39,544 bases of DNA from an uncultured Pelagibacteraceae bacterium (lineage in GTDB: Bacteria > Pseudomonadota > Alphaproteobacteria > Pelagibacterales > Pelagibacteraceae). Of the stretch, positions 4,827 to 24,877 are shown one piece after another; the first letter of the stretch is position 1; the number at the start of each line of letters is the position of its first letter. The stretch is from positions 1 through 39,544 of the forward strand of contig CACMNP010000008.1 of the NCBI GenBank assembly GCA_902615045.1, written 5' to 3'. A model generated the notes under the pieces. The model saw only the letters and a program-made list of their open reading frames with translations. It was not told where the DNA came from and did not search any database. A program made the position numbers and the translations under genes.

Positions 4827-5162
4827 ATGAACTATTACGAACACACATTAATTGCAAGACAGGATACATCTCCTTCACAAATTAAACAAATTCAAGACAA
4901 ATATTCGAAAATTATTGAAAGTAATGATGGAAATATTCTTAAGTTTGAGAGCTGGGGATTAATGCATTTATCTTATTTAATAAAAAAGAATAAAAAAGGA
5001 AATTATCTTCACTTTAAAATTGAAGGTAACGGTAACACTATTAAAGAGTTAGAAAAAAATGAAAAGTTAGACAAGAACCTTCTTAGATATATGACAATAA
5101 AAGTAAGAAAGTTAGATTTAGAAACAGATTATTTTAAGAAAAATGAAGAAGTTAACAAATAA
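4827..5162 (+). CDS. rpsF: 30S ribosomal protein S6
   Basis: S6 binds the central domain of 16S rRNA together with S18. The 111-aa protein starts with the S6 signature [16 protein letters not shown], includes [20 protein letters not shown], and ends with [11 protein letters not shown]. It opens the plus-strand rpsF-rpsR-rplI-dnaB series, the usual bacterial order. rpsR follows after 8 bases. Confidence 0.95.
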
Positions 5163-5968: not shown

Positions 5969-7384
5969 GTGTCGCAATCTTTAAATATTTTAAAAAGTAA
6001 GGCCGAAGAATTACCTAATAATATTGAAGCTGAACAATCAGTAATTGGATCTATTCTTTTAACAAATGAGATATTTGATGATGTTAGCATTATAGTATCA
6101 AGTAAAAACTTTTACGATCCAATTCATAAAAAAATATTTGAAGCACTAGAAAAACTCATCTATGGTGGGCTTCTAGCAAATCCAATAACTCTAAAAAATT
6201 ATTTTGAAAAAGAAAAAGATGAATTAAATATTCCAGAGTATTTAGTCAAAATAACTAAATTTTCCACCTCATCAAGACAAGCACTTGAATATTCGAAACT
6301 TATTTTTGATCTTTTTGTAAAAAGAGAATTAATAAAAATTTCAGGAGAAGTTATAGATCAAGCCAAACTAAATGATCTAGGAATAGATGGACAAAAAATT
6401 ATAGAAAATTATGAGAAATCTTTATTCGATCTTGCAGAGAAAGGATCTTTTAGTTCATCATTAATTAAGTTTGACGAAGCCATGAGGCAAACTATTGAAA
6501 TGGCATCGAATGCATATAAAAATGAAGAAGGTATAGTTGGTGTACCAACTGGATTAAGAGATTTAGATGATAGATTGGGTGGTTTGCATAAATCAGATCT
6601 TATTATTATTGCAGGGAGACCCTCGATGGGTAAGACTGCTTTAGCTACTAATATTGCATTTAATGCAGCAAAAAAAATTCAAGATAGTGGAGACAAAAGT
6701 TCAATCGCTTTCTTTTCACTAGAAATGTCATCAGAACAATTATCTACAAGAATTTTAGCAGAGCAATCACGTATTAAATCAAATGATATAAGGAGGGGTA
6801 AAATATCAGAGGAACAATTTGATAAGTTTATTGAAACTTCAAAGGATATATCTGAACTTCCATTATATATTGATGAAACGCCAGCAATAACGATAGCAGC
6901 TCTTAGCAATAGAGCAAGAAGGATAAAAAGATTGTATGGTCTAGATATGGTTGTAATAGACTATATTCAATTGATGAGAGCATCAAATGCTAATAATGGG
7001 AGAGTTCAAGAAATATCAGAAATAACACAAGGATTAAAAGCTCTAGCAAAAGAATTATCTGTCCCTGTATTGGCACTTTCTCAACTTTCAAGAGCTGTAG
7101 AACAAAGGGATGATAAAAAACCACAATTATCGGATTTAAGAGAATCGGGCTCAATTGAACAAGATGCTGATGTGGTAATGTTTGTTTATAGAGAAGCATA
7201 TTATTTACAAGGAAAAGAGCCTAGACCTGCAACTGTAGAACATGCTGAATGGCAAGCTAAAATGAATGAGGTATCGCATTTAGCTGAGTTAATTATTCAA
7301 AAACAAAGACATGGGCCAACTGGCAATGTGATGCTTGAATTTGAAGCAATGTTTACCAAATTTAAAGATATTCAAAATAATTAA
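5969..7384 (+). CDS. dnaB: Replicative DNA helicase DnaB
   Basis: DnaB is the hexameric 5'-3' helicase at the replication fork. The N-terminal domain opens with LPNNIEAEQSVIGSILL (15-31). The RecA-like domain has GVPTGLRDLD, Walker A GRPSMGKT (216-223), FSLEMS, Walker B VVIDYIQLM, LSQLSRAVEQR, LRESGSIEQDADVV and the C-terminal QRHGPTGNV. At 471 aa it is full length, with no intein. The start is a GTG at 5969; no ATG lies upstream in frame near it and no clear ribosome site is seen. It follows the ribosomal trio as in most bacteria. Confidence 0.96.
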   Translation: MSQSLNILKSKAEELPNNIEAEQSVIGSILLTNEIFDDVSIIVSSKNFYDPIHKKIFEALEKLIYGGLLANPITLKNYFEKEKDELNIPEYLVKITKFSTSSRQALEYSKLIFDLFVKRELIKISGEVIDQAKLNDLGIDGQKIIENYEKSLFDLAEKGSFSSSLIKFDEAMRQTIEMASNAYKNEEGIVGVPTGLRDLDDRLGGLHKSDLIIIAGRPSMGKTALATNIAFNAAKKIQDSGDKSSIAFFSLEMSSEQLSTRILAEQSRIKSNDIRRGKISEEQFDKFIETSKDISELPLYIDETPAITIAALSNRARRIKRLYGLDMVVIDYIQLMRASNANNGRVQEISEITQGLKALAKELSVPVLALSQLSRAVEQRDDKKPQLSDLRESGSIEQDADVVMFVYREAYYLQGKEPRPATVEHAEWQAKMNEVSHLAELIIQKQRHGPTGNVMLEFEAMFTKFKDIQNN

Positions 7385-7409
7385 ATTAAATTATAAAAGC
7401 TAATAGTTG

Positions 7410-9785
7410 ATGTTAGCCAAATTTTATCAAAATATTGTTCTAAAAAAACCAAATTTAATTATAATTCTATTAATAATTTGCCTGTGTTTCTTTGGATATA
7501 ATTCTAAAGACTTTAGACTTGATGCGTCTTCAGAAACATTACTGATAGAGGGAGATCCAGATTTAAAATATCTAAATGAGATAAACGATAGATATGGAGC
7601 AAAAGAATTCTTAGTTCTTACTTATACGCCAAAAAAAAGTATGATAGATGAAAATTCTATTGAAAATCTAATACAACTAAAAAAACAAATTCAACAACTT
7701 AACTGGGTACATAATGTAATCACACTATTAGATATACCTTTATTGAGCAGCTCTGATGAGCCACTTATTGAAAGACTTCAAAACTACTCTACGCTTAGAA
7801 CAAAAGGTATTGATAAAGAGCGAGGATTTAATGAAATATTGAATAGTCCTGTTTTTCGAAATTTTGTTATTAGTGAAGATGGCAAAACTTCTGGGATTAT
7901 AGTTTATTTAAAATCTAAAAAAAAAATAATTGAATTTAAAAGTAAAAAGGAAGAAGACTTATATAAAGATAAATTAAAAAAACAAAATCATCAAAATATT
8001 TTAGAAATAAGAAAAGTAATAAAAGATTTTAGTTCTACTAGTAAAATTCATTTGGGAGGAATACCAATGATTGCTGATGACATGATGACTTTTATAAAAA
8101 ATGATATTATTGTTTTTGGACTAGGGGTATTTATCTTTATTATTGCTACTCTTTGGTATGTTTTTAGAAGATTAATATGGGTAATTGTTCCAATAAGTAG
8201 TTGTTTTTTTTCAGTGATAATAATGACAGGACTTTTGGGTCTATTAGGTTGGAAAGTTACAGTTATATCATCTAATTTTATAGCTTTAATGTTGATATTA
8301 ACAATGGCTATGAATATTCATATTAGCACAAGATATCTTCAACTATCAAAACAATTTCCAAAATTAAACAAATTTAAAATTATTTCTTTAACAACTAGCA
8401 AAATGTTTTGGCCTATTTTATATACAGCCTTAACAACTATATTTGCTTTCTTGTCTCTGGTGTTTAGTGAAATAAAACCAATAATAGATTTTGGATTTAT
8501 GATGACTTTTGGTCTAATGATTTCATTTCTTATTACTTTTAGTTTATTGCCAACATTAATTAATTTATTTAATTTTAATAAAGTTGCTTTAAAAGAGGAA
8601 AAAGGTAGCAACATTACTAATTTTTTCTGCAACGTTTCAATTTCCAAGCAAAATACTATCTTTGGAACAAGCTTAATAATTATATTTCTTAGTATATTAG
8701 GGATTTCTAAACTTGAAGTAGAAAATAGTTTCATAAATTATTTTGATAAAAAAACTGAAATTTATAAAGGGATGAAACTTATAGATGAAAAATTAGGTGG
8801 TACAACACCACTTGAAGTTATTTTAAAATTTCCAAAACAAGATGATGTTGAACAAAAATCTGAAGATGAAGAAGACGATTGGGGTGATGAAGATGAGAAT
8901 GATGAAAAATATTGGTTTACTAAGGATAAAATTGATAAGATAAAAAAGGTCCATAACTATTTAGACTCTTTGGAGCCAATTGGAAAAGTGCTTTCTTTTT
9001 CGTCAATTATTGATGTTGCCACTCAATTAAATAACAATAAAGAACTAGGCTCTCTTGAAATGGGAGTTTTATACACAAAAATACCAGATAATATAAAAAA
9101 AGAAATTGTAGATCCTTATATCTCCATAAAAGACTCGGAAGCTAGGATAAGTTTGAGAATAAAAGACTCTCTAGATAATTTAAGGAGAAATGATTTACTA
9201 ATTAAAATAAATTCTGATCTTAAAAATAAATTAGATTTAAAAAAGGATGAGTTTAAATTAGGCGGTGTATTAATTCTTTTCAACAATCTTTTACAAAGTT
9301 TATTCAAATCTCAAATTTTAACACTTGGATTTGTTATGCTTGGAATTTTTATAATGTTTATAATTCTATTTAAAAATTTAAAATTAGCTTTAATAGGTGT
9401 TGTTCCAAATTTTATAGCAGCTTTTTTTATATTAGGATTGATAGGATTGTTAGGAATTCCACTTGATATGATGACAATTACAATAGCTGCCATAACTATA
9501 GGTATAGCCGTAGATAATAGTATTCATTATATTTATAGATTTAAAGAGGAGTATGCAAAGTTAAGAAATTATAATAAAACATTAAAATTATGTCACTCAA
9601 CTGTCGGTAAAGCTATTTTAAATACTTCAATTACAATAGTTTTTGGATTTTCGATTTTAGTAATGTCAAATTTTATACCAACAATTTATTTTGGTGTATT
9701 CACTGGGATTGCCATGTTACTTGCAATGGTTTCAGTTTTAACACTTTTACCTTCTTTATTGCTTAAAATTAAACCATTCAATTAA
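7410..9785 (+). CDS. MMPL/RND-superfamily membrane transporter
   Basis: A 791-aa protein with the RND/MMPL plan: one membrane segment near the N-terminus (about 12-29), a large outside loop, a block of five membrane segments (about 230-400), a seventh near 415-435, a second large loop, and a final block of five. The duplicated layout and segments such as GIAVDNSIHYIYRF and the final LTLLPSLLL are typical of predicted exporters related to HpnN/MmpL, which move lipids or hydrophobic compounds. The second loop carries a run of acidic residues (EDEEDDWGDEDENDE, about bases 8863-8910). A TTG at 7407 directly precedes the ATG at 7410; I prefer ATG. It overlaps cvpA by 1 base. Substrate unknown. Confidence 0.82.
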   Translation: MLAKFYQNIVLKKPNLIIILLIICLCFFGYNSKDFRLDASSETLLIEGDPDLKYLNEINDRYGAKEFLVLTYTPKKSMIDENSIENLIQLKKQIQQLNWVHNVITLLDIPLLSSSDEPLIERLQNYSTLRTKGIDKERGFNEILNSPVFRNFVISEDGKTSGIIVYLKSKKKIIEFKSKKEEDLYKDKLKKQNHQNILEIRKVIKDFSSTSKIHLGGIPMIADDMMTFIKNDIIVFGLGVFIFIIATLWYVFRRLIWVIVPISSCFFSVIIMTGLLGLLGWKVTVISSNFIALMLILTMAMNIHISTRYLQLSKQFPKLNKFKIISLTTSKMFWPILYTALTTIFAFLSLVFSEIKPIIDFGFMMTFGLMISFLITFSLLPTLINLFNFNKVALKEEKGSNITNFFCNVSISKQNTIFGTSLIIIFLSILGISKLEVENSFINYFDKKTEIYKGMKLIDEKLGGTTPLEVILKFPKQDDVEQKSEDEEDDWGDEDENDEKYWFTKDKIDKIKKVHNYLDSLEPIGKVLSFSSIIDVATQLNNNKELGSLEMGVLYTKIPDNIKKEIVDPYISIKDSEARISLRIKDSLDNLRRNDLLIKINSDLKNKLDLKKDEFKLGGVLILFNNLLQSLFKSQILTLGFVMLGIFIMFIILFKNLKLALIGVVPNFIAAFFILGLIGLLGIPLDMMTITIAAITIGIAVDNSIHYIYRFKEEYAKLRNYNKTLKLCHSTVGKAILNTSITIVFGFSILVMSNFIPTIYFGVFTGIAMLLAMVSVLTLLPSLLLKIKPFN

Positions 9786-10330
9786 TGATTGAACCTATTC
9801 AGGATTTTTTAATACAAATAACATTATTTGATTATATTTTTTTTGTATTAACCATTTATTTTTTAATTCAAGGATCTAGAAAAGGTTTTGTTTTAAGTTT
9901 ATTGTCAGCTGCCAAATGGGTTTTGGCATATATTTTAACAATTTATTTATTTCCGAAAGTAAAACCGTATTTTGAAGGTATTTTAGATAGCGAATATGTT
10001 CTTGATATAATTGTTGGTGTAATATTGTTTATCTTAATAATATTTCTTATTCTTTTAGGAAATAAAGCAATAAGTAAAGTTGTAACCTACACTGGATTAG
10101 GTTCAGTCGATAAGGTTTTTGGCTTTTTCTTTGGAATCGCTAAGAGCTATATTCTAATTGTTTGTTTATTCACAGCTATTGACGTAGTCTACGATAGCAA
10201 AAAATGGCCGTTAAATTTAAAAGATTCGTTAACATTTCCTTTGGTTGAAAAAGGTAGTATCTATCTTATAAAGGTATTTCCAAATCAAAAACAATATGAA
10301 GACGCTAAAGAAAAAGTTCAAGATGTATAA
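9785..10330 (+). CDS. cvpA: CvpA family inner-membrane protein
   Basis: A 181-aa protein with four predicted membrane segments, including the first (DYIFFVLTIYFLIQGSRKGF) with the family G-S-x-K-G-F element, and a late FFGIAKSYILIV. CvpA is an inner-membrane protein named for colicin V production; its molecular role is not settled, and its gene is typically next to purF, as here. It starts at the TAATG junction with the MMPL gene (1-base overlap) and its end overlaps the preferred purF start by 8 bases. Confidence 0.88.
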   Translation: MIEPIQDFLIQITLFDYIFFVLTIYFLIQGSRKGFVLSLLSAAKWVLAYILTIYLFPKVKPYFEGILDSEYVLDIIVGVILFILIIFLILLGNKAISKVVTYTGLGSVDKVFGFFFGIAKSYILIVCLFTAIDVVYDSKKWPLNLKDSLTFPLVEKGSIYLIKVFPNQKQYEDAKEKVQDV

Positions 10331-11765
10331 CCCTAAATTAAAAGAGGAATGTGCTGTTTTTGGTATAAGTAATACACCAGAGGCATCGACCTTAACCGCT
10401 TTAGGACTTCATGCGTTACAGCATAGAGGACAAGAGGGTTGTGGAATTGTATCATTTGACGGGGAAAAATATCACTCTGAAAAAAGATTTGGTTTAGTTG
10501 GTGACAACTTTAATGATGAAAAAGTTTTAAAAAACTTACCAGGAAATTATGCAATAGGTCACAATAGATATTCTACAACTGGCGGAACTGCTTTAAGAAA
10601 TGTACAACCGTTCTTTGCTGATACTAATTCAGGTGGAATTGGAGTTGCGCATAATGGTAATCTTACAAATGCAATAACTCTTAGAAATAAAATGGTTGAA
10701 GAAGGGTCAATTTTTTACACAACATCAGATACAGAAACGATAGTAAAACTTATAGCCAAATCAAAAAGACCCAAGACAATTGATAAAGTTATTGATGCTT
10801 TATTTCAAATTCAAGGGGGATATGCATTAGTTATGATGACACAAAATACTCTTATTGGGGTAAGAGATCCTTATGGAATTAGACCTCTAGTTATTGGAAA
10901 ATTAAAAAACTCTTATGTTTTTGCGTCTGAGACCTGTGCTTTTGATATTATTGGTGCAAAGTTTGTTAGAGATGTTGAAAATGGTGAAATTGTTTATGTA
11001 GAAAATGATGAATTAAAAAGTATTAAGCCATTTCCTCAAAAAAAAGTGAGACCATGTGTATTTGAATATATTTATTTTTCAAGACCAGATAGTATTTTAA
11101 ATGGCAAAACAGCCTACGAATATCGTAAAAGATTTGGAGCTGAATTAGCAAAAGAGGATAATTTAGATGCTGATTTGGTTGTGCCAGTACCAGATTCTGG
11201 TAATGCAGCTGCATTGGGTTACGCTGAGGAAAAAAAAATAAATTTTGATTTAGGTTTAATAAGAAATCATTATGTTGGTCGTACTTTTATAGAGCCATCA
11301 CAACAGATTAGAAGTTTAGGAGTTAAATTAAAATTAAATGCAAATGTTTCAGTTATAAAAAATAAAAAAATAATTTTAGTTGATGATTCTCTTGTAAGAG
11401 GAACAACCTCATCAAAAATTGTAAAAATGTTATATGATAATGGTGCTAAAGAAATACATGTGAGAATAGCAAGTCCAGAAATAAAATATCCAGATTTTTA
11501 TGGAGTTGATACGCCTACTAAAAAAGAACTATTAGCAGCAAACAAATCAGTGGATGAAATAAAAGAATTTATAAAAGCAAAATCACTTAAATTTTTAACT
11601 TTAGATGGCTTATATCGAGGAATGGGTTTTGATAAGAGAAATGATGCTTATCCACAATTAACTGATCATCATTTTACTGGTGATTATCCAGTAAAAATAA
11701 TTGATGAACTTGGAGAGGATAAAGTTACACAATTATCATTGTTAAGTACAGGATCGAGTAATTGA
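10323..11765 (+). CDS. purF: Amidophosphoribosyltransferase PurF
   Basis: PurF makes 5-phosphoribosylamine from PRPP and glutamine, the first committed step of purine synthesis. I choose ATG 10323 over ATG 10296: it gives a 9-residue propeptide before the nucleophile Cys10 (EECAVFGI) and only 8 bases of overlap with cvpA. The Ntn glutaminase half shows HNRYSTTG (80-87) and HNGNLTN (110-116). The PRT half shows PVPDSGNAAALGY and the PRPP loop VDDSLVRGTTSSK (about 353-365). Near the C-terminus, DHHFTGDYP stands where cluster-bearing PurF proteins have a C-x-x-C-F motif, so a 4Fe-4S cluster is unlikely. It shares one base with the next gene. Confidence 0.96.
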   Translation: MYNPKLKEECAVFGISNTPEASTLTALGLHALQHRGQEGCGIVSFDGEKYHSEKRFGLVGDNFNDEKVLKNLPGNYAIGHNRYSTTGGTALRNVQPFFADTNSGGIGVAHNGNLTNAITLRNKMVEEGSIFYTTSDTETIVKLIAKSKRPKTIDKVIDALFQIQGGYALVMMTQNTLIGVRDPYGIRPLVIGKLKNSYVFASETCAFDIIGAKFVRDVENGEIVYVENDELKSIKPFPQKKVRPCVFEYIYFSRPDSILNGKTAYEYRKRFGAELAKEDNLDADLVVPVPDSGNAAALGYAEEKKINFDLGLIRNHYVGRTFIEPSQQIRSLGVKLKLNANVSVIKNKKIILVDDSLVRGTTSSKIVKMLYDNGAKEIHVRIASPEIKYPDFYGVDTPTKKELLAANKSVDEIKEFIKAKSLKFLTLDGLYRGMGFDKRNDAYPQLTDHHFTGDYPVKIIDELGEDKVTQLSLLSTGSSN

Positions 11766-12322
11766 TGAAAAAAGTAAATTTTACTGAAATGAAAAATGGT
11801 TCAAAAGAAGATTATGAATTATTAGAAAAGTATGAAAAAAATTTTGAACGTAAAACAGCAGATAGATTACTTAAGTATCTTGCAAGTCAAACTACAACTC
11901 TTGAGGGTTATCAAATAACTAGATTAGAACATTCTTTACAAGCAGCCACAAGAGCATACAAGAACGGAGAAAGTGAAGAGATGGTTGTAGCAACTTTACT
12001 TCATGACATAGGAGACGACTTGGCGCCTATGAACCATTCTCAATATGCAGCTTCGATAATCAGACCATATGTTTCTGAGAAAACATATTGGATAATCCTT
12101 CATCATGGACTTTTTCAAACTTATTATAGCGCTCATCATTTAGGCGGGGATAGAAACGCAAGGGATAAATTTAAGGAACACAAATATTATCAAGATACTG
12201 TTGATTTTTGTGAAAAATACGACCAATCTTCTTTTGATCCTAATTATAAATCGATGTCTTTAGAAGAATTTGAACCAATGGTTAAAAAAATATTTGATAG
12301 AAAACCTTTTTATCATCACTAA
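11765..12322 (+). CDS. HD-domain metalloprotein
   Basis: A 185-aa HD-superfamily protein. Metal-ligand candidates are His56 (RLEHSLQAATRA), His80-Asp81 in LLHDIGDD, His91, His113/114 and His124. Length and motif order resemble the group often annotated as predicted HD phosphohydrolase, and also the PhnZ/TmpB mixed-valence di-iron oxygenases that cleave organophosphonates. The sequence does not decide between hydrolase and oxygenase. The ATG overlaps the purF stop (TGATG); a TTG 3 bases earlier is possible but less likely. The next gene starts 15 bases on, so it is probably co-transcribed with cvpA-purF. Confidence 0.8.
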   Translation: MKKVNFTEMKNGSKEDYELLEKYEKNFERKTADRLLKYLASQTTTLEGYQITRLEHSLQAATRAYKNGESEEMVVATLLHDIGDDLAPMNHSQYAASIIRPYVSEKTYWIILHHGLFQTYYSAHHLGGDRNARDKFKEHKYYQDTVDFCEKYDQSSFDPNYKSMSLEEFEPMVKKIFDRKPFYHH

Positions 12323-12337
12323 TTTTTAAAAGAAAAC

Positions 12338-14287
12338 ATGACTAATAGACTAAAGGAAGAGAAAAGTCCTTATTTAAAGCAGCATAAAGATAATCCTGTA
12401 AATTGGTTAGCTTGGAATAAAGAAAGTTTAGAACAAGCAAAAAAAGAGAGAAAACCAATATTTCTTAGTGTTGGATATGCAAGTTGTCATTGGTGCCATG
12501 TGATGGCACATGAAAGTTTTGAAGATGATGAAACAGCTAAAATAATGAATGAGAAATTTATAAACATTAAAGTTGATAGAGAAGAAAGACCTGATTTAGA
12601 TTATGTTTTTCAAAGAAGTTTATCTATTTTAACAGGAACTCAAGGAGGCTGGCCTTTATCCATGTTTCTTGATGAAAATGGAGTTCCTTTCACTGGTGGA
12701 ACTTATTTTCCTCCAAAAGAAATGCATGGAAGACCAGATTTTCAAAAAGTTCTTAATAATGTTTCAGATGTATATAGTAAAAATAGACAAAAAATTCTTG
12801 ATCAAGCGCCCCAAATGCAGGAAATATTTGGTAAAATTAATCAAAGATCAGCAGTATTAAATCAACCATTAGAACCGTTTTTAGAAAAAATTATACAGCA
12901 CCTTGATAAAGATAATGGAAGTTTCAAAGGAGCTCCTAAGTTTCCCCAATTTTATTTATTTGATGCAATGTTTTATTTTTATTTAAAAACAGGAAATGAA
13001 GAATACTTTAAACCCGTTGAAACTTTACTTTACAATATTTCTTCAAAAGGAATGTATGATCATCTAGCTGGTGGTATAGCAAGATATACTGTCGATGAAA
13101 ATTGGATAGTTCCCCACTTTGAAAAAATGCTTTATGATAATATCCAATATATCGGATTATTAAATAAGTTCTTTCAAAAAACCAATAATCTTTATTATAA
13201 AGGAAAGTTAGAGCAAACCATAAATTTTATCAATTCAGAATTTAAAAATAAATTTGATCTTTATGGGTCAGCATATGATGCTGATAGTGATGGTGTTGAA
13301 GGAAAATATTACGTATGGAATTATTTAGAACTAAAAAATATTCTGGGCTCTAAATTTAATTTATTTACAAAAAAATATATTTTAACTGAAAATGGAAATT
13401 TTGAAGGTAATAATATTTTAACAGAAACTCATAATAAACTTTCCGATGATGAGATTAAAGAAATCTCAAACACAGAAAAAACGTTATTAGATCAAAGAAA
13501 CAAACGTACCAAACCATTATTTGATGATAAATCTCAAACTGATCAAAATTGTTTTTTGTTAGAAACTATCCTTTTTTCATCGTTAGTAACTGATAATGAA
13601 AATTTAAAACAAAATACTCTATCAAGTATAAATATATTGGAAAAATATTTATCAGACAAAATTTTCCATTGTTATCAAGAAACAGAGATTGATGCTTTTT
13701 TGGAAGATTACGTATATTATGCAAGTCTCTTGATAACTATTTATGAATTAGACGGTGAAGATATATACATCGAAAAAGCAAAAGATATATTAATAAAAAC
13801 CTGGGAATACTTCTTTGATAAAAAATCAGGATTAATGCAAAAAAATAAAATATTAGATAATGACCTTTTTGTTCAGCCAGTAGATCTAAATGATAATAAT
13901 ATACCCAATGGAAATAGCATATATTTGAACCTATGTAATAAATTATACATAATAAGTAGTGACAAAACATGGTTTGAAAAAATTGATATTTTAAAGAAAA
14001 GTTTCCACCAAGTTTTAAACTCAAACTTTGCACAAATGTTTAGTTTTGTTAAATCATTGGATATTTGTAATGAAAGTATATCTTTTACAATTCATGGAAA
14101 GCAAAATTTAGATCCTAATATAAAAAAGTATTTGCAAAAAAATTTTTTTACTAGAGCTACATTTAAATATCTAGATAATGAAGTAAAAGAGGCAAAAATT
14201 GTTATATGTAAAAATCAAACTTGCTCTAACAAATTAAGTAATATAAAGGAAATTGAAGATTATCTAAAAAGAAACAATATAAGCTAA
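12338..14287 (+). CDS. Thioredoxin-domain protein, YyaL/SPATA20 family
   Basis: A 649-aa protein of the YyaL (COG1331) family: an N-terminal thioredoxin-like domain with NPVNWLAW and the redox pair CHWC (Cys50, Cys53), then VDREERPDLD and GGWPLSMFLDENGVPFTGGT, followed by a long alpha-helical barrel region resembling six-hairpin glycosidases (GGIARYTVDENW, HFEKMLYDN, YDADSDGVEGKYYVW). Length is near family size (600-700). The biochemical role is unknown; members are widespread and are presumed redox-active. The gene overlaps gshA by 1 base (TAATG), placing it directly upstream of glutathione synthesis, which fits a thiol-related role but does not prove one. Confidence 0.9.
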   Translation: MTNRLKEEKSPYLKQHKDNPVNWLAWNKESLEQAKKERKPIFLSVGYASCHWCHVMAHESFEDDETAKIMNEKFINIKVDREERPDLDYVFQRSLSILTGTQGGWPLSMFLDENGVPFTGGTYFPPKEMHGRPDFQKVLNNVSDVYSKNRQKILDQAPQMQEIFGKINQRSAVLNQPLEPFLEKIIQHLDKDNGSFKGAPKFPQFYLFDAMFYFYLKTGNEEYFKPVETLLYNISSKGMYDHLAGGIARYTVDENWIVPHFEKMLYDNIQYIGLLNKFFQKTNNLYYKGKLEQTINFINSEFKNKFDLYGSAYDADSDGVEGKYYVWNYLELKNILGSKFNLFTKKYILTENGNFEGNNILTETHNKLSDDEIKEISNTEKTLLDQRNKRTKPLFDDKSQTDQNCFLLETILFSSLVTDNENLKQNTLSSINILEKYLSDKIFHCYQETEIDAFLEDYVYYASLLITIYELDGEDIYIEKAKDILIKTWEYFFDKKSGLMQKNKILDNDLFVQPVDLNDNNIPNGNSIYLNLCNKLYIISSDKTWFEKIDILKKSFHQVLNSNFAQMFSFVKSLDICNESISFTIHGKQNLDPNIKKYLQKNFFTRATFKYLDNEVKEAKIVICKNQTCSNKLSNIKEIEDYLKRNNIS

Positions 14288-20611: not shown

Positions 20612-21205
20612 ATGACATTTGAATTACCAAAACTAAATTATTCTAATGAGGCTTTGTCTCCAATAATGTCACAAGAAACATTAGAGTTACATCATGGAAA
20701 ACATCATCAAACCTACATAACAAATCTTAACAATTTTATAAAAGATACGGACTTGGCTGAAATGTCATTGGAAGATATAATTGTTAAAAGCTCAAAAGAT
20801 AACTCAAAAGCTGGAATATTTAATAATGCAAGCCAGCATTGGAACCATAATCTTTTTTGGAAGTGCATGAAGCCAAAAGGTGGTGGGAATATTCCGTCAA
20901 AACTTGAGAAAAAAATTATTGAAGATTTTGGAAGTGTTGAAAAATTCAAAGATGAATTCAAACAAGCAGGTATAACTCAATTCGGATCAGGTTGGTGTTG
21001 GTTATCTTTAAATAATGATAAATTGGTTGTTACAAAAACAGCAAATGCCGCTAATCCTTTAATTGATAACTTAAAACCAATACTTGGTTGTGATGTCTGG
21101 GAGCATTCATATTACATTGATTATAGAAATAGAAGACCTGAATATTTAGATAAATTTGTTGATAATCTTATAGATTGGGAATTTGTTGATTCTCTATTAA
21201 TCTAA
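20612..21205 (+). CDS. sodB: Superoxide dismutase, Fe/Mn family
   Basis: Converts superoxide to oxygen and peroxide in the cytoplasm (no signal peptide). The 197-aa protein has ligands His27 (LELHHGKHHQTY), His78 (NASQHWNHNLFW), Asp160 and His164 (GCDVWEHSYY). The glutamine in NASQHW (Gln74) is at the position typical of iron-type SODs, so iron or cambialistic use is more likely than strict manganese. C-terminal RNRRPEYLD is standard. A 64-base gap with a palindrome precedes it. Confidence 0.95.
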   Translation: MTFELPKLNYSNEALSPIMSQETLELHHGKHHQTYITNLNNFIKDTDLAEMSLEDIIVKSSKDNSKAGIFNNASQHWNHNLFWKCMKPKGGGNIPSKLEKKIIEDFGSVEKFKDEFKQAGITQFGSGWCWLSLNNDKLVVTKTANAANPLIDNLKPILGCDVWEHSYYIDYRNRRPEYLDKFVDNLIDWEFVDSLLI

Positions 21206-21295
21206 ATAATCCTAGAACTTTTTGAGATAAATCAAATAGCCATTTTTAATTTTAAGGCAAATAGACTTTCATTTCAGAATCTGTTATTTTAAATT

Positions 21296-22402
21296 ATGAA
21301 AAAAATTTTTATTATTGCATTATTAATTTTTATCTCAAATACAGTTCTTAACGCAGAAACAATTAAACCAAAAAAAACACCACTAAAAAAATTATCTAAA
21401 CAACTAGGCAATGGAGAATTAATTAAGATTAATTCATATCAAGCTTCTGATTATAAAGGTATTATGGAGGGCTGGTATAAAGAGAGCCCAATAATAGTTG
21501 ATGCTCTTATTACTTATCCAAAGGGAGAAGGTCCTTTTCCTTTATTATTAATCGTTCATAGTAGTGGTGGTGCTGATGAATTTACTGCAAATTGGTTAGA
21601 GTTTATGAGAGATCAACAGAAACCTTTGTTAGATATGGGGATAGCGACAATGTATTTAGATAATTTTTCTGCGAGAGGTGCGAAACATACTTATACAGAT
21701 CAATCAAAGGCTTCTTTATGGTCTACTTATATAGATGTGTTTATGGCATTAGAGTATCTCAGCAAGGATCCAAAAATAAATATTAAAAAAGTAGGTGTCT
21801 CTGGTTATTCAAGGGGAGGAAATCTTTCAATAATGGCTGCAGAAAAAAGATTGAGAGATATATTAGTTAGCAAAGATCTTTATTTTGCTGCCTCTCAACC
21901 AAGATCTGCTGAATGTGGAATTACTGGAATGTTTAGAAATCCAACTCCAGTTAAAGAAACTAAAATTTGGTATGTACATGGTTTAGCTGAGGATTATACC
22001 TTGCCAGGTCCATGTGTAGATATAATGGAAAAAATGCAAGCTAAAGGTGCTGATATTAGAATCGATTTAAGAGAGGGATGGTATCATACATTTACTGGAA
22101 ATTATGAGCCAGAAATTGAAAAAAGAACTCAATATTTTTGGAAGTGTCCTAATTTTTACACAGAGGATGATGGGAATCCTAATAAAGAGTTCATTGATTT
22201 AATTATAAAAAATACAAAAATAAAAAGTTTGGATGAATTTAATGAGTTATCACGTAAAAATCCAAGAAAAGCTTTTAAAACAATGTTCAAGGGTCTTAAA
22301 AAAGAAAATTGTATTGGAAAAGGTGTTACTGAAGGGGGTAACCATGGAAAAACTTTTATGCCAGAATATTTAGCATTTTGGAAAGAAAATTTATTAAATT
22401 AA
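21296..22402 (+). CDS. Exported dienelactone-hydrolase-like alpha/beta hydrolase
   Basis: A 368-aa secreted hydrolase. Residues 1-20 form a signal peptide ending VLNA. The alpha/beta-hydrolase core has LLIVHSSGGADEF (oxyanion side), the nucleophile elbow GYSRGG with Ser172, an acidic turn HGLAEDYTLPGPC, and the late histidine in EGWYHTF. This order and the long N-terminal insert match dienelactone-hydrolase-family proteins with signal peptides found in marine alphaproteobacteria; substrate unknown. It stands alone between an 89-base leader and the rearranged region downstream. Confidence 0.82.
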   Translation: MKKIFIIALLIFISNTVLNAETIKPKKTPLKKLSKQLGNGELIKINSYQASDYKGIMEGWYKESPIIVDALITYPKGEGPFPLLLIVHSSGGADEFTANWLEFMRDQQKPLLDMGIATMYLDNFSARGAKHTYTDQSKASLWSTYIDVFMALEYLSKDPKINIKKVGVSGYSRGGNLSIMAAEKRLRDILVSKDLYFAASQPRSAECGITGMFRNPTPVKETKIWYVHGLAEDYTLPGPCVDIMEKMQAKGADIRIDLREGWYHTFTGNYEPEIEKRTQYFWKCPNFYTEDDGNPNKEFIDLIIKNTKIKSLDEFNELSRKNPRKAFKTMFKGLKKENCIGKGVTEGGNHGKTFMPEYLAFWKENLLN

Positions 22403-22464
22403 TTTAATTAAAAAACTCGATCTACAACTCGATAATAAAGAGATTAAACAAAGTTTTTAGTAGT

Positions 22465-22539
22465 ATGACACCAGAAAACTCAAGTAAACTTTGGAAAATT
22501 ATTCAGGAGGCTGGTGATGATTTTATATCATCAAAATGA
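22465..22539 (+). pseudogene. Truncated copy of the small gene at 23604
   Basis: A 24-codon reading frame whose residues 4-18 (ENSSKLWKIIQEAGD) match residues 4-18 of the 75-aa protein at 23604 (ENASKLWKIIQAAGD). By direct base comparison, 49 of the first 60 bases agree, and weaker similarity extends about 20 bases upstream of both ATGs. After the shared part the copy runs into a 7-base inverted repeat (TGATGAT...ATCATCA, 22515-22533) and stops. It is best read as a decayed partial duplicate; a 24-residue peptide is possible but less likely. Confidence 0.7.
22515..22533. repeat. Inverted repeat at the end of the truncated copy
   Basis: TGATGAT (22515-22521) and ATCATCA (22527-22533) form a perfect 7-base stem with a 5-base loop exactly where similarity to the full gene at 23604 stops. 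Sequence resembling the full copy (ATTTAAAT) resumes just after it, which suggests a small insertion or slip at this point. Confidence 0.45.
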
Positions 22540-22620
22540 TTTAAATAATTAGGACACTGTTTTTAATACAATAAATAAAGATTTAATAACAATAATTAAT
22601 TAAGAAAAACAGAATTAAAA

Positions 22621-23505
22621 TTAAAAAGTGAATTTTTTAATTATCTTGTTTAATTTTCTATTAATTTTTATATTAATTTTTTTTAATCCTTCTTTTAAAG
22701 CAATTTTTGTAACATTAGTAATTATGCTTAACCATATTTTAAAATTTATTAAATAATTATTTTTATAATTATCAAGCATGTGATCATTTTTATTATTATT
22801 ATGTATAAATATATTTAAGTTTGAGAGAACTTTATTAGTCATTAATGATCCATTAAAATCTATTTGAGTTTTTGGATAATCAGAATCACTCGGTTGAAAT
22901 TCAAGTAAAATAGTTCTTCTTTCATTTAAGCAAGGATACTTTCCATGGAAACCAAATGAATCAAACATTATAAGATCTCCTTCAGTTCCAGTTAAATCGA
23001 CAATATCTTTTTTATATTTTTCTAATTCAGTATGGCTAAGCTCATGTGATATTCCATGATTTAAATTGTTTGAATTCTTTATATATCTAAAACCACCAGA
23101 ATTTTTATCACCACCTTTTAGGTAAATTTGTGCTCTATACATTCCTCTTCTTAAATCTGTATGAAATTTTAATGGGTTAGGATTTTTTTTTTCAGTAAAT
23201 ATCATCACACTAGTAACAACATAATTTTTTTTTTTTTCATCATCTACAACAAGATTAAAAACATCAATAATCAGCTCCATTAAATTGATTGACTTAATGT
23301 TTATACAAGGTGTTGTAATTGCTTCTCTTGGATAAGTCTGATCAAGGGTTATTGATCCTTTATTAAAACCATTAAAAAGAACTTGAGAAAACATACCATC
23401 AAGTTCTTGATTAATTTTCTTGACAATGTCCTCTTTTAAGAAATTTTTAATTATACTGTAACCTTCATTATTAAATTGTTTTTTTAAAAATAAATTTTGA
23501 TCCAT
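22621..23505 (-). CDS. Phytanoyl-CoA dioxygenase (PhyH) family oxygenase
   Basis: A predicted Fe(II)/2-oxoglutarate oxygenase of 294 aa, starting at ATG 23505 (a start 48 bases earlier would add an implausible Tyr/Ile-rich leader). The iron triad is His115-x-Asp117 (KFHTDLRRGMY) and His187 (FGFHGKYP), with Arg197 in NERRTILLEF as the 2-oxoglutarate partner. The GYSIIKNFL start and GTEGDLIMFDSFGFHG are typical of PhyH-like proteins, which hydroxylate varied small molecules and side chains; substrate unknown. It is alone on the minus strand, AT-rich with many Lys/Asn/Ile codons, and flanked by two copies of a small gene, suggesting it arrived by insertion. Confidence 0.8.
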   Translation of the reverse strand: MDQNLFLKKQFNNEGYSIIKNFLKEDIVKKINQELDGMFSQVLFNGFNKGSITLDQTYPREAITTPCINIKSINLMELIIDVFNLVVDDEKKKNYVVTSVMIFTEKKNPNPLKFHTDLRRGMYRAQIYLKGGDKNSGGFRYIKNSNNLNHGISHELSHTELEKYKKDIVDLTGTEGDLIMFDSFGFHGKYPCLNERRTILLEFQPSDSDYPKTQIDFNGSLMTNKVLSNLNIFIHNNNKNDHMLDNYKNNYLINFKIWLSIITNVTKIALKEGLKKINIKINRKLNKIIKKFTF

Positions 23506-23603
23506 ATTTTTTTTATAAATTAAATAAGTATATATATAGGTTATATTATACAATAAAAGATTAAAAGAGTATTAGAATTAGACAATAAAAAGTTTAATGG
23601 TAT

Positions 23604-23831
23604 ATGAACAAAGAAAACGCAAGTAAACTCTGGAAAATTATTCAGGCAGCTGGCGATTATTTAAATGGTCAACTTCCTGATCATCCAAATCATCCAAAAG
23701 GGAGAAATCCATATGCTCATGTAGCAATATGTGTAAAAAACAAATTTAATTCTTCTTATAAGAATATTCCTGATGACAAATTTGATGAAGTAATCAACTA
23801 TATTAAATTTTTAAAAGAAAATCCTGGTTAA
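23604..23831 (+). CDS. Small protein with an ORF6C-like tail, unknown
   Basis: A 75-aa soluble protein. The N-terminal third is helical (ENASKLWKIIQAAGDYL); the middle is His/Pro-rich (DHPNHPKGRNPYAHVA); the end (KFNSSYKNIPDDKFDEVI) resembles the C-terminal module of phage antirepressor-like proteins of the ORF6C type, in which a Y-x-x-I-P-x-x-x-F-D-E pattern recurs. That likeness is from memory and only suggestive. A partial duplicate of the gene lies at 22465. Its end overlaps the convergent threonine aldolase gene by 4 bases. The existence of a diverged copy supports it being a real gene. Confidence 0.65.
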   Translation: MNKENASKLWKIIQAAGDYLNGQLPDHPNHPKGRNPYAHVAICVKNKFNSSYKNIPDDKFDEVINYIKFLKENPG

Positions 23832-24877
23832 TTAGATATGGTTTTTAGAAAATCGTCTACTTCACTACTTTTAGTATTCCAAGCTGTAACAAGTCTAACT
23901 ACCTTACCATCTAATTCCTCATTGCTCATCATATATTCTTCTGTATTTAAATGCTCAACCATCTTTTTTGGCAGTTTAACAAAAACTTCATTTGCCTCAG
24001 TTGGATATTCAAGTTTAACTTGATTACTAGAAACTAAACCATCGCTTAATTTTTTTGCCATTAGATTTGCGTGTCTAGCGTTTTTTAACCAAACATCATT
24101 TGAGATATATCCATCTAATTGTGCAGAAACAAAACGCATTTTAGACAATAGATGACCGGATCTTTTTAACAAAAAAGGTAAATTGCCAACTAATTCCTTA
24201 TTAAATATAATAATTGCTTCAGCTGCTATACATCCATTCTTCGTTGCTCCAAAAGATAATATGTCAATTCCTGATTTCCATGTCATTTCTGCGGGAGTAA
24301 CATCTAGTGAAACAAGCGCATTAGCGAACCTAGCACCATCCATATGTACTTTTAAGTTTTTTTTATGTGCAATTTCAGAGATATTTCTAATTTGATCTAA
24401 AGTATAAACTTCACCAGTTTCTGTTGCTTGAGTTATGCTAACAATAGATGGTTGAGTATGATGCACAATTCCAAACCCTCCAATATTATCATTTAGCTCA
24501 TCAACTGTTATTTTGCCGTCTTTACCGTTTAATGGAACAAGTTTTGCTCCACCTGTATAAAATTCAGGGGCTCCACACTCGTCAACATTGATATGAGAAA
24601 ATTTATGGCAATAAATATTTCCAAATGATGGAGACATAGCAGAAAGTGCTAAAGCATTTGATGCAGTTCCTGATGCTGTGGGGTAAACAATTACATCCTT
24701 TTCGAAAATTTTAGAAAATTTTTCTTGTAACACACCTGAAATTTCATCGTTACCATACGGAGGAGCAATACCATCATTTGCTTTGATAATTGCATCCAAA
24801 ACTTCTGGACAAGCTCCTGTCACATTGTCTGAAGCAAATTTTACTCTTTTGCGTTTTGTATTAATTTTTGCGTTCAT
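23828..24877 (-). CDS. ltaE: Low-specificity L-threonine aldolase
   Basis: PLP enzyme cleaving L-threonine (or allo-threonine) to glycine and acetaldehyde. The 349-aa protein shows FASDNVTGACPEVLDAI, YPTASGTASNALAL, HMDGARFANAL (178-188) with the PLP-contacting aspartate, and SFGATKNG with the Schiff-base Lys213. It is the last gene of a tight minus-strand trio: one base after the glycine amidinotransferase, itself 6 bases after a permease. In a cell type often short of glycine it could supply glycine to the upstream enzyme; that link is inference from operon structure. Confidence 0.9.
   Translation of the reverse strand: MNAKINTKRKRVKFASDNVTGACPEVLDAIIKANDGIAPPYGNDEISGVLQEKFSKIFEKDVIVYPTASGTASNALALSAMSPSFGNIYCHKFSHINVDECGAPEFYTGGAKLVPLNGKDGKITVDELNDNIGGFGIVHHTQPSIVSITQATETGEVYTLDQIRNISEIAHKKNLKVHMDGARFANALVSLDVTPAEMTWKSGIDILSFGATKNGCIAAEAIIIFNKELVGNLPFLLKRSGHLLSKMRFVSAQLDGYISNDVWLKNARHANLMAKKLSDGLVSSNQVKLEYPTEANEVFVKLPKKMVEHLNTEEYMMSNEELDGKVVRLVTAWNTKSSEVDDFLKTISN

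Follow-up and report, generated by a model that had tools for sequence, protein, structure and literature searches.

A small gene and its truncated copy enclose an oxygenase gene

The window, the whole stretch of DNA analysed here, is 39,544 nucleotides long and comes from an uncultured Pelagibacteraceae bacterium (SAR11). It carries a small gene of 75 codons and, on the same strand further upstream, a truncated copy of the start of that gene. These features and their neighbours are given below, with the strand in brackets.

20612..21205 (+), sodB-like superoxide dismutase gene, conserved left flank (open reading frame and allele series; named by eye)
21206..21239 (+), putative remnant of the region upstream of the small gene (CCTAGAACTTTTTGAGATAAATCAAATAG), in which the old flank meets the inner motif of a cassette
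21296..22402 (+), dienelactone-hydrolase-like gene, cargo of an earlier insertion (Pfam DLH, 30.1 bits for a cut-off of 21)
22415..22453 (+), end of the hydrolase cassette on its right side, with ACTCGATCTACA/ACTCGATAATAA as tandem variable repeat and GAGATTAAACAAAG after it
22465..22524 (+), truncated 5′ end of the small gene (about 20 codons), read as the old gene start and left junction of the oxygenase insert
22525..22620 (+), stretch where the left arm of this insert would be expected; no canonical repeats can be recognised, through decay, deletion or divergence
22621..23505 (-), PhyH-like oxygenase gene, putative cargo (sub-threshold Pfam PhyH)
23520..23603 (+), upstream region probably brought with the oxygenase gene; canonical right arm not recognisable
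23604-23831 (+), target gene, 75 amino acids (open reading frame); start probably supplied by the insert; proposed attB at about codons 8-20
23828..24877 (-), threonine-aldolase-like gene, right flank (open reading frame; name from an earlier note on this DNA and by eye)

The earlier note, made from the letters alone, had reported that the start of the gene at 23604 is repeated at 22465, and this is the case: 49 of 60 bases agree. In blastn the two copies align over 51 bp at 88% (E 9e-14), the top non-self match in the window. The likeness claimed upstream of the ATG is weak, with 11/20 and 10/20 bases agreeing in the two 20-base blocks next to it. A perfect 7-base inverted repeat does exist at 22515, as had been noted. 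It does not mark the boundary of the copy, since the similarity runs to about codon 20, which is the break point of most other truncated copies described below. Fifty-two such repeats (loop 3-8) occur in the AT-rich window, no more than expected by chance, and the repeat was discarded as a boundary. No third copy of the gene start was found at E≤10 in the window's genome, which is 74% complete.

The oxygenase open reading frame lies between the two copies on the minus strand, as claimed. It extends over 22621-23553 from a TTG codon and encodes 294 amino acids from the ATG at 23505. Its naming as PhyH-type is a weak assignment (Pfam E 0.015, 16 bits for a cut-off of 22). Among the 201 genomes of the genus, the oxygenase gene occurs in one, the window's own. 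The hydrolase is at least 92% identical in 8 of the 201, its own genome counted; its cluster is also cargo in another locus (L119) and stands ahead of the first truncated copy in a further one (L127). A second hydrolase gene of the window's genome (G000:C9:1087-2121) encodes a protein 40% identical to that at 21296. The threonine aldolase cluster (c3) lies 3′ of the target gene in many, not all, of the loci compared. As to the 75-amino-acid protein, Pfam gave a sub-threshold DUF2281 match alone, PHROGs and NCBIfam gave nothing, and comparison with solved structures returned two insignificant matches (E 0.61 and 0.81). It may hold a domain of the phage antirepressor type.

The truncated copy as the old gene start

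Loci of relatives were compared with sodB in view. Before deduplication there were 45, with the site empty in 30, occupied by the hydrolase gene only in 6 and by other cargo in 8, the one remaining locus being the window. Distinct loci comprise 14 with nothing between sodB and the small gene, 5 with the hydrolase gene only and 8 with other cargo, plus the window; relatives having one copy of the gene and no oxygenase, which the earlier note had named as support for its reading, are thus at hand. At the empty sites, the small gene begins 44 or 17 bases past sodB.

The hydrolase-only locus of AG-917-G09 (L063) tells the two copies apart. The 100 bases upstream of its intact gene agree with those upstream of the window's truncated copy at 96 positions, as compared to 45 of 100 for the region upstream of the window's full copy; therefore, the truncated copy corresponds to the old start. 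Truncated copy and L063 gene start share 54 of 60 bases, the first 35 being identical, and over codons 22-75 the window's full gene shares 155 of 162 bases with that of L063. It follows from the comparison with L063 that a new upstream region and start arrived with the oxygenase gene. Read in this way, the original gene start survives as the truncated copy, and the full copy received its new start with the insert. Six bases differ at the inner end of the truncated copy, and these could have arisen by decay once the insertion had taken place.

The hydrolase gene is itself an insert, earlier than the oxygenase gene. At 21206..21239 the remnant of the old flank is common to the empty sites of L044 and L010 and to the hydrolase-only alleles, and the inner motif joined to it is as in intact left ends. 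A first truncated gene start may have been lost there. On the other side of the hydrolase gene, the motif class of 22415..22453 is also found upstream of other copies of the small gene. One count at this site goes against the model developed below: 13 of the 15 insert-bearing loci at sodB have no truncated copy, so that either the truncated copy is often deleted or some insertions arise otherwise.

Truncated gene starts recur across the family

The small gene is present in 59 of 147 genomes and in 10 of the 14 genera of the family. Searching the 201 genomes of the genus with the 75-amino-acid protein gave a match at E≤1 in 137, and two or more matches in 43. Most second matches, among those listed, correspond to the first 20-37 codons, on the same strand and upstream of the full copy; the exceptions among them are matches to the 3′ part in G153 and G197. 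At least one truncated copy occurs in 16 of 80 named loci similar to the protein, the upstream sequence being short in some of the 80. A DNA profile of the first 60 bases had more than one match in 44 of 150 loci, with mixed strands in none. Overall, 38 of 112 distinct loci have an extra truncated copy (first 20 codons or so, same strand, upstream), a proportion inflated by the many regions chosen for having extra copies, and L137, counted among the 38, gave a weak match. Truncated copies are also found in other genera and in three single-contig genomes (G226, G235 and G209, the last from another genus), which argues against assembly error as their general cause. Successive gene starts are 227 to 8638 bases apart (median 2012, n=45).

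The search across genomes that the earlier note had suggested thus returned truncated copies in many of them, each marking a cassette. Its reading of the window as a partial duplication bracketing an acquired gene holds for the bracketing and the acquisition. The duplication is not a one-off event; it follows a pattern recurrent at the small gene. Remnants, said in the note to be rare in genomes of this type, are common at this locus.

The start of the gene varies independently of its 3′ part. Among 104 distinct intact genes (those with in-frame stops, too little flank or a duplicate sequence being excluded), identity over codons 1-8 was uncorrelated with identity over codons 23-75 (r -0.01). 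Controls taken from within the 3′ part gave r 0.52 for a block of equal length and r 0.64 for two halves. The value of -0.01 fits replacement of the start at each insertion; codons 1-8 vary little, 76 of the 104 genes beginning with MNKENASK or VNKENASK, and this in itself lowers r.

Two unusual arrangements were seen. The 121-kb contig of L188 (G257:C2:108000-118000) has two truncated starts, at 4909 and 7489 of the region, and the intact gene lies on another contig; explanations would be another site, a relocated array or a break between contigs. G332:C15 and G304:C19 have an intact small gene near both ends, in opposite orientation and with equal scores, perhaps through a palindromic assembly artefact.

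Cassettes have a common anatomy and mostly matched ends

The canonical cassette consists of the old gene start, the cargo and the new gene start supplied by the insert. Its left end covers about 175 bp past the truncated start and contains the core GATTATTTG, repeats of about 10 bp of the type ACACTACYTC, a conserved AT-rich stretch, two copies of a variable repeat (ACTaGnnnn...) and the motif GAGATAAATCAA. The right end, ahead of the next gene start, has a similar repeat pair and GAGATAAA-CAA, often preceded by TATAGGATTTTATAGGATA.

Within most cassettes the variable repeats of the two ends match. The first set contained 43 cassettes, the window, L137 and the short duplicates L017 and L019 having been left out beforehand, and 36 could be anchored (no anchor in 7). 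Own ends scored 13.1 on average and mismatched ends 2.0, a difference reached in 0 of 20,000 permutations, and the own partner ranked first in 22 of the 36. In the 14 others the anchor was misplaced in some cases (e.g. L098, L129) and the ends differ in others. A second set of 12 further cassettes, ten of them from other genera, replicated the result (23.5 as compared to 15.1, 0 of 20,000 permutations; own partner first in 7 of 12). Here, one of 13 cassettes was dropped as already in the first set, units below 350 bases were left out, and loci with a single match give no pair. Both permutation tests treat cassettes as independent though some share ancestry.

In L187, three tandem cassettes each have their own matched pair. 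Unlike ends were observed in L109, L132, L193 and one cassette of L117. The smallest spacing corresponds to 227-base units between gene starts found in two genera (L083 5774-6001; L185 9019-9246); that of L083 consists of two element ends and has no open reading frame of at least 60 amino acids.

Canonical arms are partly or wholly absent from L094, the first unit of L130, L137, L184, L188 and the window. Both canonical arms are missing from the window's oxygenase insert, whose two ends resemble each other no better than shuffled sequences do (631 of 2000 reach the score). A 123-nt left-end query gave nothing better than E 0.018 in the window's genome. The insert was assigned by allele comparison, and would be an armless insert of the same kind as the cassettes.

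Cargo

A total of 92 clusters of cargo reading frames of at least 60 amino acids was listed; the 77 of at least 85 amino acids were scanned for protein families, 20 of them also singly. Matches include type I restriction-modification (L071), a Z1-domain ATPase (L095), a helicase with a nuclease domain (L085) and a ResIII-Mrr protein (L105). The first 25 families tallied also comprise a type II methylase and restriction enzyme, caspase and trypsin-like domains, a TRAP transporter component, a short-chain dehydrogenase and TetR regulators. All of these assignments are sequence matches, several PADLOC matches being to general helicase or methylase models; anti-phage defence genes are among those matched.

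The largest interval (L112 281-8919, 8.6 kb, oriented with the small gene on the plus strand) encodes a MORN-repeat/caspase protein, whose gene adjoins sigma-factor-like and regulator-like reading frames recognised by eye. In L122, a TypA/BipA gene and a DEAD-box helicase gene stand between two gene starts (9698-13386); genes of this housekeeping type may belong to the host and have been enclosed through a rearrangement.

The core precedes a recombinase gene in three circular elements

No relative of two integrases of the elements described below was found in a cassette (tblastn, E≤1e-3, 168 loci). Likewise, the Pfam family Phage_integrase (PF00589) had no match on the array contigs of 25 genomes (24 and the window's). 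On other contigs it had a match in 18 of the 25, in an open frame of 307-325 amino acids, and in a 19th, in a frame of 201 amino acids; 5 of the 25, including the window's 74% complete genome, had no match. This search was not fully sensitive, as it missed a decayed integrase on G159:C14.

The exact core pattern was found in two viral contigs, L152 and L153/L173. In L152 the core stands directly 5′ of a gene for a 581-amino-acid protein matching the PHROG 1 integrases (E 1e-22; Pfam 26.1 bits for a cut-off of 27.1), and the contig also encodes an AEP-type primase with a DUF5906 region. Residues R396, K423, R520, H544 and Y554 are invariant in the three proteins aligned (L152, L154 and L162), which places them among the tyrosine recombinases; we take these five to be the catalytic residues.

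Exact terminal repeats, as circular molecules give, were found in L154, L170, L171 and L172 (8.98-9.27 kb) and L169 (14.2 kb), with a length of 77-127 bases, and in L152, with a length of 29. These six sequences are therefore regarded as circular. The truncated start or core lies directly before the tyrosine recombinase gene in three of the six (L152, L154 and L170). In these three, the left variable repeat falls within the first 30 or so codons of the integrase gene and by eye resembles the repeat before the core. In L171 and L172 the integrase gene is present with no match to the core, and L169 has another, shorter recombinase-like reading frame recognised by eye.

On the chromosomal side, a decayed integrase lies together with other element genes in the genome G159, about 6.4 kb upstream of the intact small gene and on its strand. 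This decayed element at a contig edge is the only one seen; no complete autonomous element was found at the small-gene site of a chromosome. The element integrase occurs in 4 of the 201 genomes of the genus and in 1 of 147 of the order. Relatives of the elements in G120 and G168 sit in tRNA-Leu(TAA); integrase-primase elements in this tRNA gene are delimited as follows.

L162 8972-17819 and L163 4454-12317, integrase-primase elements in tRNA-Leu(TAA), 7.8-8.8 kb

There, the 5′ half of the tRNA gene, not its 3′ end, is duplicated, as repeats of 42 bases in G120 and 41 bases in G168 located 8.8 and 7.8 kb away, respectively. By eye, the left end of the cassette in L099 retains the start of the integrase reading frame. 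This remnant points to an origin of the cassettes from such elements, whose stretch between the inner repeats would have been exchanged for cargo.

The arrangement in L153 (13895-14119, minus strand), also seen in L173, is not explained by the model: an intact small gene lies 584 bases from the end of the viral contig, with element replication genes 3′ of it on the opposite strand. This is perhaps an element carrying the whole gene, or a rearranged insert. A 215-amino-acid protein of L153 resembles by eye the product of a cassette gene in L078. L169 encodes at 7069-12478 a run of small proteins of secreted type (several beginning MKKLL...), similar by eye to those of chromosomal cassettes.

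Among INPHARED phages, neither the 181-base att-core query nor the recombinase had a match, and the primase matches, in 222 records, were all below 60% identity. The left-end pattern was absent from the viral contigs. For the ten reading frames of L152, Pfam reported no relaxase and no capsid family; PHROGs reported no capsid family for six of them. That the circular elements come from a collection of viral contigs hints at a phage satellite, and is suggestive only.

A model for the locus and its alternatives

The order of events at the window's locus, the recurrent anatomy and the matched ends of most canonical cassettes are shown by the sequences compared. Taken together, they make it highly probable that the first 20 or so codons of the small gene contain an attachment site for integrative elements of SAR11, that insertion splits and restores the gene, and that cassettes stack at this site. 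An element or a cassette circle would recombine at the core in the gene start. The gene would be split past about codon 20, the old start being left behind as a scar, and the insert would bring a new upstream region and start, thereby restoring the gene. Since the site would be rebuilt at each insertion, it would be open to the next insert and tandem cassettes would result. In the window, the hydrolase cassette would have come first and the oxygenase cassette second, leaving the copy at 22465; the truncated copy that belonged to the hydrolase cassette would later have been lost by recombination between two GAGATAAATCAA motifs. The same recombination could also empty a cassette, as in the 227-base units. 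Catalysis may be provided by the recombinase of the circular elements, from which the cassettes themselves may originate and which would move them in trans, the variable repeats may serve as arm sites, and cassettes may pass between cells.

Homologous recombination alone was considered, with the conserved small gene and its flanks as a landing pad and no site-specific recombinase. The cassettes searched have no recognised recombinase, and the loss of truncated copies between GAGATAAATCAA motifs does look like recombination at short repeats. However, most truncated copies break at one codon and continue into the same arm of about 175 bp, the core precedes a tyrosine recombinase gene in three circular elements, and the ends match within most cassettes. 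As an account of the insertions, homologous recombination is thus unlikely.

It could also be that the pair in the window arose by ordinary partial duplication of the gene and has nothing to do with the cassettes of relatives, as the rarity of the oxygenase gene (1 of 201 genomes) and the unrecognisable arms of its insert would allow. This we judge very unlikely, because the pair shares strand, break point near codon 20 and locus with the canonical cassettes, and because the truncated copy has the upstream sequence of the L063 gene start (96/100). Finally, it is very improbable that a host Xer-like recombinase of about 325 amino acids moves the cassettes, as in Xer-dependent elements: a cassette would then need no recombinase of its own, and the frames of 307-325 amino acids found off the array contig in 18 of 25 genomes were read as Xer from their size, but the circular elements using the same site have their own recombinase directly beside it, and the relatives with their own recombinase use tRNA-Leu.

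We conclude that the locus is an integration hotspot of SAR11 filled by non-autonomous, CIME-like cassettes, and that the truncated copy in the window is most likely the scar of a docked gene cassette. A broader proposal, which we put forward tentatively and hold to be somewhat short of probable, is that of a cassette-exchange system proper to SAR11. Cargo slots of 0.2-9 kb between matched variable tandem repeats, acting as a specificity tag, would be moved in trans by circular primase-recombinase elements of about 9 kb, resulting in family-wide swapping of phage-defence and metabolic genes at one docking gene.

In the ocean, SAR11 bacteria reach an extreme abundance (PMC7029224), and they are regarded as streamlined (PMC10872708). 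The locus offers a concrete route by which they could gain and lose phage-defence and accessory genes. With a docking gene, definable ends and candidate recombinases, this route is testable in E. coli and traceable in metagenomes.

Comparison with known systems

Integrons hold arrays of exchangeable small cargo cassettes at one site, and the SAR11 site too holds such an array. Two points set them apart: array contigs had no Phage_integrase match in the 25 genomes searched, and the SAR11 site is the start of a coding gene.

The statements on published systems that follow are limited to the available parts of the sources cited. A 2007 survey of SAR11 variable regions looked for attC sites, saw none associated with them, and places an integrase gene in HVR2 and tRNA genes next to HVR4 (PMC2217521); a 2025 study describes tyrosine recombinases and tRNA genes adjoining a transferred operon in Pelagibacterales (PMC12416821). 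The literature searched, mostly without subscription papers and hence weak evidence of absence, holds no description of the docking site, the matched repeats or the circular elements. Charybdis elements were dropped from the comparison, being archaeal, 4.6 kb in size and, in the text available, without a recognised replication gene (PMC12324425).

Tycheposons of streamlined marine bacteria are cargo elements of 4-200 kb bordered by tRNA genes and provided with a tyrosine recombinase (PMC10872708). By contrast, the SAR11 target is a protein gene, and the cassettes measure 0.2-8.6 kb and have no recognised recombinase. Use of a tRNA gene as in tycheposons was observed with the element relatives of G120 and G168 alone (tRNA-Leu).

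CIMEs have att sites and no integration genes, and accrete in tandem at one site (PMC5704250). The SAR11 cassettes are alike in all three respects: integration genes are missing from those searched, they stack in tandem, and the canonical ones have att sites in the form of a truncated start on the left, a restored start on the right and mostly matched arms. At the window's insert both gene starts are in place, and the arms are not. CIMEs are, however, decayed ICEs or IMEs tied to conjugation, whereas the SAR11 relatives that keep a recombinase are circles of about 9 kb with a primase-helicase, in which no conjugation gene was noticed.

Genomic islands at dusA integrate near the 5′ end of a protein gene and replace that end, using direct-repeat att sites and a tyrosine recombinase (Farrugia et al. 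2015, PMC4482086). Replacement of the 5′ end of the target gene is common to these islands and the SAR11 cassettes. All that the islands universally share is the integrase, whereas no recombinase was recognised in the cassettes, the integrase being present in the circular elements L152, L154 and L170-L172. The cassettes further differ by their tandem arrays, their mostly matched variable repeats, and another target gene and host. Overall, as far as these sources reach, 5′-end replacement is already known from dusA islands, integrase-less tandem elements from CIMEs and marine cargo elements at tRNA genes from tycheposons.
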